Source: Carbonactinospora thermoautotrophica (GTDB taxonomy: Bacteria; Actinomycetota; Actinomycetes; Streptomycetales; Carbonactinosporaceae). Taken from it: 64,000 nucleotides of DNA. The stretch is taken from positions 620,001-684,000 of the forward strand of contig NZ_JYIJ01000018.1 of assembly GCF_001543895.1 (NCBI RefSeq). The letters are read 5' to 3'. Positions 22,422 to 58,910 of this stretch are shown one piece after another. Numbering within the stretch: position 1 is the stretch's first letter; every line of letters starts with the position of its first letter. Both the position numbers and the translations under genes were made by a program. The notes below the pieces were generated by a model. The model worked only from the letters and a program-made list of their open reading frames with translations, made no database searches and had not been told where the DNA came from.

Positions 22422-22928
22422 TCAGGCGGCGATCTCGGCGGGGTCGAGCGGGCGCAGCTCGTCGGCGTAGCTCACCGAGACGCGGCGCATCACGCCGTCC
22501 TCGGTGATCACGTACTGGCCCAGGCGCCACAGCGGCGGGGAGTACGCGTGGATCGACACGCTCTGGGGCGCCACGCCGGTGAGGCGGTGGATGTGGTCGG
22601 GGCCGAAGCAGAACGACTCGCCCTCCTTGACCACCACCTCCACGTGGTCGCCGCCGATGCGCGGGTTGCTCTCCAAGATCGCACCCTGGACCACACGCAC
22701 CGCGCCGGAGGAGACGTCGTGGTCGTGCCAACCGGTGTCGTTCCGCGGGGTCCAGCACAGCAGCCACACGTCGACGTACTCGTCGCGGTAGAGCGACTCG
22801 TAGTGCCGCTTCTCGTCGGAGAAGGCCACCAGGTGACGCCACAGCTCAGGACGTTCGGCCAGATTGTCGACGAGCTGACGCAGCTCCCGCTTGTCCAGGG
22901 TGCGGGCGGGCAGCGCCTCGAAGGTCAT
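22422..22928 (-). CDS. Cysteine dioxygenase family protein (thiol dioxygenase), copy 1
   Basis: A 168-residue cupin of the CDO type I family, which uses Fe(II) and O2 to oxidise a thiol to a sulfinate. The expected three-His iron site is H68 and H70 in GWHDHDVSSGAV and a third His (H112 or H114) in FGPDHIHRLTG. The Tyr and Cys of the mammalian crosslink are not obvious, as usual in bacterial members, so 3-mercaptopropionate or another thiol could be the substrate. ATG 22928 with gagga upstream overlaps the amidohydrolase stop as ATGA, so the two are one transcription unit under the LacI-type operator region. Confidence 0.85.
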   Translation of the reverse strand: MTFEALPARTLDKRELRQLVDNLAERPELWRHLVAFSDEKRHYESLYRDEYVDVWLLCWTPRNDTGWHDHDVSSGAVRVVQGAILESNPRIGGDHVEVVVKEGESFCFGPDHIHRLTGVAPQSVSIHAYSPPLWRLGQYVITEDGVMRRVSVSYADELRPLDPAEIAA

Positions 22929-56848: not shown

Positions 56849-57502
56849 GTGGTCGGGGAACGTTTGGTGCAGGGGCGTGAGCTGGCCCCGCGCAGGTGGC
56901 AGGATCTGCGCGGGACGGCGGACGGGCACGTCGAGGTCCTGCGGTACCCGCGCGGCGTGGTGCTCGTCGTGGCTGGCGTCCCGGGCGCGGGCAAGAGCAC
57001 CCTGCTGCACAGGTTGTTCCCCATCAGCGGGGCCGAGCAGGCCCCGGTGTGGCTACCCGGCGACGTGCTGGTGGTCGACTCCGAGCAGGCACGCAACCGC
57101 TGGCGGCAGCACCTCGGGCCGAGAGTCCCGTACCGGCTGTACCGGCCGCTGGTCCACCTCACCAACCTGTGGAGCACGCTGCGCGCCCTGCGCCGCGGTG
57201 CCACGGTGGTCCTGCACGACTGCGGGACGCGACGCTGGTGGCGTCACCTCGTGACCCGCGCCGCCCGGCGGCCGGTGCATGTCATCCTGCTCGACGTGCC
57301 GCCCGAGCTGGCGCTGGCCGGCCAGCGGGCACGCAACCGCCTGGTCCGCGGCCGCGCGTTCCGCCGACACCTGCGGGCCTGGCGGCGGCTCGTGCCGGAC
57401 CCGGAGGCCGCCGCCCCGCCCCGCTCCGTGTCCAGCTGCGCCTCGTGCCTGGTCCTCGACCGCGCGGCCGCCGCCCGGTTGCGGGCCATCAGCTTCTCCT
57501 GA
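56849..57502 (+). CDS. P-loop ATP-binding protein (kinase-like)
   Basis: A 217-residue protein with Walker A AGVPGAGKST (about residues 42-51) and a second-strand VVLHDCGTRRWWRH, then LLDVPPELALAGQRARNRLVRGRAFRRHLRAWRRL, a lid-like Arg-rich helix as in small-molecule kinases or zeta-toxin-like ATPases. The substrate is not identifiable. GTG 56849 lies in a gaggtgaggt context. Confidence 0.7.
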   Translation: MVGERLVQGRELAPRRWQDLRGTADGHVEVLRYPRGVVLVVAGVPGAGKSTLLHRLFPISGAEQAPVWLPGDVLVVDSEQARNRWRQHLGPRVPYRLYRPLVHLTNLWSTLRALRRGATVVLHDCGTRRWWRHLVTRAARRPVHVILLDVPPELALAGQRARNRLVRGRAFRRHLRAWRRLVPDPEAAAPPRSVSSCASCLVLDRAAAARLRAISFS

Positions 57503-58137: not shown

Positions 58138-58260
58138 GGTTGTCCTTCGCGGGCGGTACGGATGGGAACGCGGGCGCTCGGCGAGAGCGGGTTCCGGGAA
58201 GGACGCGGTCTGGTCAGCCAGCCGAGGGAGAGTCGGCGCGCGTTCGACGACGAGGCCGCG

Positions 58261-58353
58261 TCACAGCGAAGGACGACAACACAGGCAACAACACAGCGCG
58301 CTGGCCACGCGACGGAGCTTCACGTGGTGCAGACGGTCGGCGCGCTGGTACAT
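58261..58353 (-). CDS. Cysteine-rich leader peptide upstream of the cysteine dioxygenase gene
   Basis: A 30-codon ORF begins MYQRADRLHHVKLRRVAS and ends ALCCCLCCRPSL, with five Cys codons in a run of six. The LRRVASALC part resembles the small leader peptides found before sulfur-metabolism operons in actinobacteria. Such ORFs work as cysteine-responsive attenuators in mycobacteria. There is no ribosome site; a TTGACA box lies upstream (58385-58390 on the plus strand as TGTCAA) and a TATCT stretch ends three bases before ATG, so the message is probably leaderless. Strong candidate for sensing cysteine in the gene that destroys it. Confidence 0.8.
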   Translation of the reverse strand: MYQRADRLHHVKLRRVASALCCCLCCRPSL

Positions 58354-58502
58354 GGCAGATAGGACACACGGTGTGAACCGCCGGTGTCAAACCGGCGTGT
58401 CACTCCTCTGGCGGCCGAAGCGCCGCCGCGGCCGGGTCGCACCGGGTACCGGGTCACCGAGGACACGAGGGACACCGGGACCAGAGCCTAAGCTGCGGTG
58501 CC

Positions 58503-58910
58503 ATGGCCTGCGTGTTCTGCGAGATCGTGGCCGGGCGGCGGCCGGCCCACGTGGTGCTGGACGACGAGATCGCGTTCGCGTTCCTGGACGCGCGGCCGCT
58601 GCTGAAGGGCCACACGCTGCTCGTGCCGCGCCAGCACTACGAGACCTTCGCCGACGTGCCCGGCGATCTCGTCGGGCCGCTGTTCGAGCGGGCGCAGCGG
58701 CTGTCCCGCGCGGTGGAGGAGGCGCTGGGCGCAGCGGGCTCGTTCGTGGCGATGAACAACCGGGTGAGCCAGAGCGTGCCCCACCTGCACGTCCACGTCG
58801 TGCCCCGCAACCGGGGCGACGGGCTGCGCGGGTTCTTCTGGCCGCGGACCAGGTACGCCGACGACGCCGAGGCCGCCGAGTACGCCGCCCGCCTGCGCGG
58901 CGCCCTGTAG
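58503..58910 (+). CDS. HIT-family protein
   Basis: A 135-residue histidine-triad protein: CVFCEIVAGRRPAHVVLDDE at the N-terminus, GHTLLVPRQHYETF, and the triad HLHVHVV (about residues 97-103) whose middle His is the nucleophile. HIT proteins hydrolyse nucleotide phosphoramidates or dinucleoside polyphosphates. Length and motifs are normal. Confidence 0.92.
   Translation: MACVFCEIVAGRRPAHVVLDDEIAFAFLDARPLLKGHTLLVPRQHYETFADVPGDLVGPLFERAQRLSRAVEEALGAAGSFVAMNNRVSQSVPHLHVHVVPRNRGDGLRGFFWPRTRYADDAEAAEYAARLRGAL

Follow-up and report, generated by a model that had tools for sequence, protein, structure and literature searches.

The window, which is the whole 64,000-nucleotide stretch of Carbonactinospora thermoautotrophica DNA analyzed here, contains a short open reading frame (ORF) ahead of a cysteine dioxygenase (CDO) gene (Table 1). 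This leader has 30 codons, five of them for cysteine, a C-terminal ALCCCLCCRPSL, and a gap of 123 nt to the CDO ATG (58137), all exactly as given in an earlier note, which had proposed a probably leaderless cysteine attenuator. Judged by similarity, the product of the downstream gene is cysteine dioxygenase; it scores 70.1 bits against PF05995, above the Pfam gathering score of 23, and solved CDO relatives in the PDB match it at E=1e-14. No clear same-strand gene directly follows CDO; the gene at 56849-57502, with an AAA-domain match, lies on the opposite strand, and a HIT-domain gene begins divergently at 58503. The window also holds a second CDO-family gene (22422-22928, minus strand; 37% identical, beginning MTFEALPARTLDKREL) downstream of a same-strand ORF, and no Cys-rich leader was detected before it. 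By eye, its product appears closer to the PDB 8QFL-8QFR group than does the copy behind the leader.

Table 1. Positions of the leader, its proposed control elements and the CDO gene in the window.
Feature	Position	Strand	Basis
-35-like TTGACA, first base at -37 from leader ATG	58385..58390	-	Sequence and conservation
Candidate -10 TCCTAT, at -11	58359..58364	-	Sequence and conservation; relatives have TGTCCTTGTGGGC-ATG; atypical
Leader ORF, MYQRADRLHHVKLRRVASALCCCLCCRPSL*	58261..58353	-	ORF list and translation; counterparts in relatives
Cys run, leader codons 21-26 (TGT TGT TGC CTG TGT TGT)	58276..58293	-	
Anti-Shine-Dalgarno (anti-SD) GTCCTTCGC, leader codons 27-30	58266..58274	-	9-bp perfect complement of 58142-58150; MFE and centroid folds
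Second GTCCTTC in the spacer, possible alternative anti-SD	58198..58204	-	Pairs with GACGCGG at leader stop in the full fold
CDO Shine-Dalgarno (SD) region GCGAAGGAC	58142..58150	-	Sequence and helix search
CDO gene, 188 aa, no Cys residue	57571..58137	-	PF05995, E=2e-19

Cysteine accounts for 5 of the last 10 leader residues as compared to 0.86% in the window ORFs. The codon choice is likewise anomalous: four of the five leader Cys codons are TGT, whereas the window ORFs use TGC 104 times and TGT 10 times. The Rfam search at the leader gave no match, and comparison of the leader with NCBIfam profiles returned 0 families at E≤1. A terminator-like hairpin, GCGTGGCCAGCGCGC then TGTGTTGTTG (58296-58311, minus strand), lies within the leader, directly 5' of the Cys run.

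A generic sigma-70 consensus scan of the window promoter region found no promoter, because the candidate -10 and the 20-nt spacer are atypical. The layout itself is nevertheless shared with class-A relatives, defined as fetched loci of the same order whose CDO begins MNSD-like (n=87): TTGACA stands 35 to 42 bases 5' of the leader-frame ATG in 87/87 of them and 36 to 37 bases in 85/87, mostly followed by the -10-region form listed in Table 1. This layout makes the leader ATG a likely site of transcription initiation; the transcript probably begins at or adjoining that codon, and the ORF is putatively leaderless. The earlier suggestion of a leaderless ORF thus gains from the conserved spacing of TTGACA, although the consensus scan gives it no support. 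Between the -35 and -10 elements, GGTTCACAC (58365-58381) is the reverse complement of GTGTGAACC, found in the same promoter stretch of class-A relatives, and the pair is a possible candidate operator.

CDO matches at E≤1e-20 were found in 273 of the 294 genomes of the order. Among the searched genomes, family f1 is represented by the window genome alone, and the order is dominated by a single genus, almost certainly Streptomyces; a contig scan for relatives gave two only, and named relatives with a leader are Streptomyces pinistramenti (L033) and Streptomyces sp. BHT-5-2 (L203). A poly-Cys leader precedes 87/87 class-A CDO genes, 87 to 302 nt upstream (median, 144), these rows being related rather than independent and coming mostly from one genus. 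Thus, the conservation that the earlier note had asked for is present, and the locus, which that note had called an unusual case, is widespread in the order. The typical class-A form is MLANLALTSTRTAGSHGAARARCSCCCCSSC, with an end like RCSCCCCSSC, and its Cys codons are TGT in 356 and TGC in 86 instances. The order has two further CDO types, one with leaders such as HVDFVRVASALCRRGRP and one with the leader RVHLDLVRYAGCTCRPFC; the window peptide reads like a leader of the former type plus a Cys run. Leaders of class B and C CDO genes match NCBIfam leader models, some below the cut-off, while the class-A poly-Cys leaders match none of NF042934, NF042936, and NF042933. Rhodanese follows the class B-D CDO genes; in L007, L010, L015, and L024, the class-A CDO is followed instead by CofD (2-phospho-L-lactate transferase, F420 pathway).

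Outside the order, 12 of 59 CDO loci have a short ORF in which Cys residues cluster toward the end, as compared to 1.6 in shuffles. The leader of family f21 is the five-residue MRCCC*, and that of f6 ends in QECCRA*, a form also found before CDO in Nocardia farcinica. In L168, L169, and L174, CTCCGG, the complement of the CDO SD CCGGAG, comes immediately after MRCCC*, and the arrangement may be a very small attenuator.

We found that in the MFE fold of the leader plus CDO start, GUCCUUCGC (codons 27-30, just 3' of the Cys run) is predicted to pair perfectly with the SD region, while the Cys codons are base-paired to the opening codons of CDO. The duplex between leader tail and CDO start reached -32.5, as compared to -16.2 ± 2.8 after synonymous recoding with the window's own codon usage (0/5000). 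The CDO start takes 17.1 kcal/mol to open, versus 8.7 ± 0.5 after synonymous leader recoding (0/150). This cost was about 12 after either TGT-to-TGC replacement only or Cys-to-Ser replacement, and 9.9 after synonymous change of the anti-SD. The stability of the whole-region fold is unremarkable (z -1.56). These results also bear on whether the ORF is a chance product or encodes a functional small protein with no regulatory role. Short ORFs are frequent in GC-rich DNA, and 90 of at least 25 aa lie within 8 kb around the locus; against such an origin stand the 87/87 conservation, the near-fixed promoter distance, the anomalous use of TGT, and a CDO start fold that needs the leader nucleotides. 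The chance ORF is therefore strongly disfavoured, and we regard either version as very improbable.

The pairing recurs in other lineages. In class A, the leader Cys codons, which include the otherwise uncommon UGU, form the helix with AUGAACAGCGACAGCGAC of CDO. Opposite A, the third base of the paired Cys codons is U in 184 cases (C cannot occur there by construction), and opposite G there are 61 cases of C and 17 of U. The odd UGU bias would thus arise because the sensing codons also serve as antisense to the target start. On the CDO side, Ser codons 3 and 5 are AGC in 147/148 cases, as compared to 12 TCC and 4 AGC in codons 9-33. Differing starts are accompanied by matching differing leaders in the window, classes A and C, f21, f6a/f6c, L194, L199, and B2; in Streptomyces sp. 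BHT-5-2, for example, CCGTCCTG stands against CAGGACGG, and S. pinistramenti has CCGTTCTG. The helix search found none for leaders B1, B3, B4, D1, L012, and f6e. Because energies of long gapped duplexes were uninformative in separating cognate from non-cognate leader:start pairs, the best ungapped helix was then used, and in this second attempt the helices covaried between lineages (permutation p=0.0057). When codons of class-A leaders were permuted or recoded, the signal was modest, with about 12% of controls as good, because the TGT/GCT repeats are self-similar.

To follow the effect of translation, we modelled a ribosome by removing the RNA to 10 nt past the A-site codon and calculated the cost of freeing CDO positions -15 to +6, in a scheme that omits RNA tertiary structure, kinetics, and ribosome queues. 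In the window, the cost was 17.1 with no ribosome, 12.7 to 13.2 with Cys 1-3 in the A site, 8.4 at Leu24, and 8.4 to 9.3 from there to the stop; the result depends on the exact footprint, and removal of 14 nt ahead shifts the switch to Cys 2. In class A (n=82), it stayed at 9.4 to 9.8 kcal/mol as far as the third codon ahead of the first Cys, then reached 7.2 at the first Cys and 5.9 by the stop, so that 2.7 of the gain of about 3.9 kcal/mol was present at the first Cys; L010 showed a weak effect among its members. In class C the start opens once the first Cys has been passed, and in L171 (f21) at the second Cys, while L198 and L206, with f6-type ECCR leaders, showed little or no opening. Since the scan places the switch at the Cys run, it provides what is, within the model, the strongest argument for cysteine supply as the signal.

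These data suggest that the leader is likely to be a cysteine-sensing translational attenuator of CDO, in which ribosome progress through the Cys codons probably sets the amount of enzyme. The transcript would start at or beside the leader ATG. With no ribosome present, complementarity predicts that the Cys codons and the next four fold over 120-odd nucleotides onto the CDO SD and start, keeping CDO silent. A ribosome more than halfway through the Cys run, or at the stop, would cover the anti-SD and lower the modelled cost from 17 to about 8-9 kcal/mol, with charged Cys-tRNA presumably determining where it dwells. We consider it unlikely that leader translation instead controls premature transcription termination before CDO, in a trp-type or Rho-dependent manner. 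Rho-dependent models have been proposed for the terminator-less mycobacterial cys leaders (PMC1262725), and other leaders of the same genome lack coupling to the RBS, which may point to another mechanism at those genes. However, no terminator-like site lies between the leader and CDO, the two found both being within the leader, and the strong lineage-specific pairing involves the CDO start itself. For translational attenuation by cysteine, as the earlier note had it in broader terms, conservation, rare-codon choice, a nucleotide-dependent leader:RBS helix, and a mycobacterial-like architecture all speak; the inverted logic it foresaw is one of two possible directions.

The direction of the response is more finely balanced. 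CDO degrades cysteine, which favors expression when cysteine is high. In the modelled window, a ribosome at Cys 1-3 does not yet cover the anti-SD, and covering it takes the addition of three cysteines; we therefore lean to high cysteine as the ON state here, with about an even chance of being right. In agreement with this direction, Streptomyces SCUT-3 grown on feathers raises cdo1 and cdo2 mRNA 50- and 8-fold, in a medium that differs in many ways (PMC7181669). Tentatively, and at somewhat under an even chance, we propose a ribosome-counting attenuator, arisen in several actinobacterial lineages, in which an anti-SD 3' of the sensing codons would turn on a catabolic gene when its substrate is plentiful. 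Ribosomes at the first Cys codons would leave CDO off, and it would come on only after several cysteines have been added.

It is also quite possible, if on balance improbable, that the same attenuator has the opposite sign, with a stall under cysteine shortage masking the sequestering strand and switching CDO on, as is reported for the mycobacterial short ORFs (sORFs; Canestrari et al. 2020). In that case, CDO would be part of a response that scavenges sulfur, perhaps with the neighboring rhodanese releasing sulfite from thiols. The modelled class-A geometry, mostly open already at the first Cys, argues for stalling as the ON state, as does the anti-SD at or 5' of the Cys codons in f6, L194, and L199; in the window itself, a stall at Cys codons 25-26 would likewise free the start. 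By analogy, CDO and sulfurtransferases of Gordonia are higher under sulfur limitation (PMC7661421). The surroundings also include sulfur genes, with rhodanese behind class B-D CDO and the L020 CDO operon divergent to an FMN reductase gene that has its own leader. Against this direction, CDO consumes cysteine, and in the models of the window, class C, and L171, full opening is reached only after one or more cysteines have been added. The earlier expectation that the logic should be inverted thus fits the window geometry, but class A and Gordonia favor the opposite, and induction of CDO by low cysteine is for these reasons not paradoxical a priori.

The genome itself carries about 14 related leaders of the cis_reg_atten type (L117-L130), 7 of them over the NCBIfam cut-off, several before sulfur genes, a context that would suit expression at low cysteine. 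The genes behind them include TauE, an SBP56-like selenium-binding protein, and DUF4395. Leader:RBS coupling was found in none of them except weakly in L119; they may use another mechanism and therefore do not fix the sign.

If cysteine turns CDO on, the locus would represent a rare amino-acid attenuator with reversed logic, overturning the usual rule that a stall means ON; if cysteine turns it off, actinobacterial CDO would serve sulfur scavenging. The finding may be relevant to keratin degradation by Streptomyces, in which CDO-derived sulfite has been proposed to act (PMC7181669). We found no report of a CDO leader in the open literature, and the novelty of the pairing is provisional because the key mycobacterial paper (Canestrari et al. 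2020) may list a CDO locus. Among the eight leaders of attenuator type given in the S. lividans re-annotation, not one is attributed to cysteine or CDO (PMC8079986).

Among known systems, a trp-type attenuator differs from the window, which has no terminator hairpin and U-tract between leader and gene. The window leader has a look-alike of the NF042934 cis_reg_atten type (grouped with NF042936, Ms4527A, and NF042933, Ms5788A) in HVxLRRVASALC, but differs in its extra Cys run, its anti-SD, and its lack of a profile match; the window site was absent from the own-genome scan with NF042934. Cys leaders of the cys/cbs operons in Mycobacterium, P. acnes, and B. longum also have Cys-codon runs near the stop; their targets, however, are cys operons and cbs, with no conserved terminator hairpins found and no CDO reported (PMC1262725).

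The closest resemblance is to mycobacterial polycysteine sORFs. With them the window shares consecutive Cys codons near the 3' end and a predicted RBS sequestration relieved by a modelled ribosome. Leaders that sense cysteine are known at genes of cysteine acquisition, and in the mycobacterial sORFs an RNA structure over the downstream start is reportedly disturbed by a ribosome on the Cys tract. These sORFs (Canestrari et al. 2020; doi 10.1111/mmi.14498) are reportedly likewise short, apparently leaderless, and equipped with a near-end Cys run and a target in cysteine metabolism. Relative to them, the window differs in its cysteine-degrading target, its perfect anti-SD 3' of the Cys run, its possibly reversed sign, and in the lineages and peptides involved. 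With the leader described here, control by cysteine-sensing peptides would no longer be confined to acquisition genes but would also cover the main enzyme of cysteine breakdown, and this within a very large genus.
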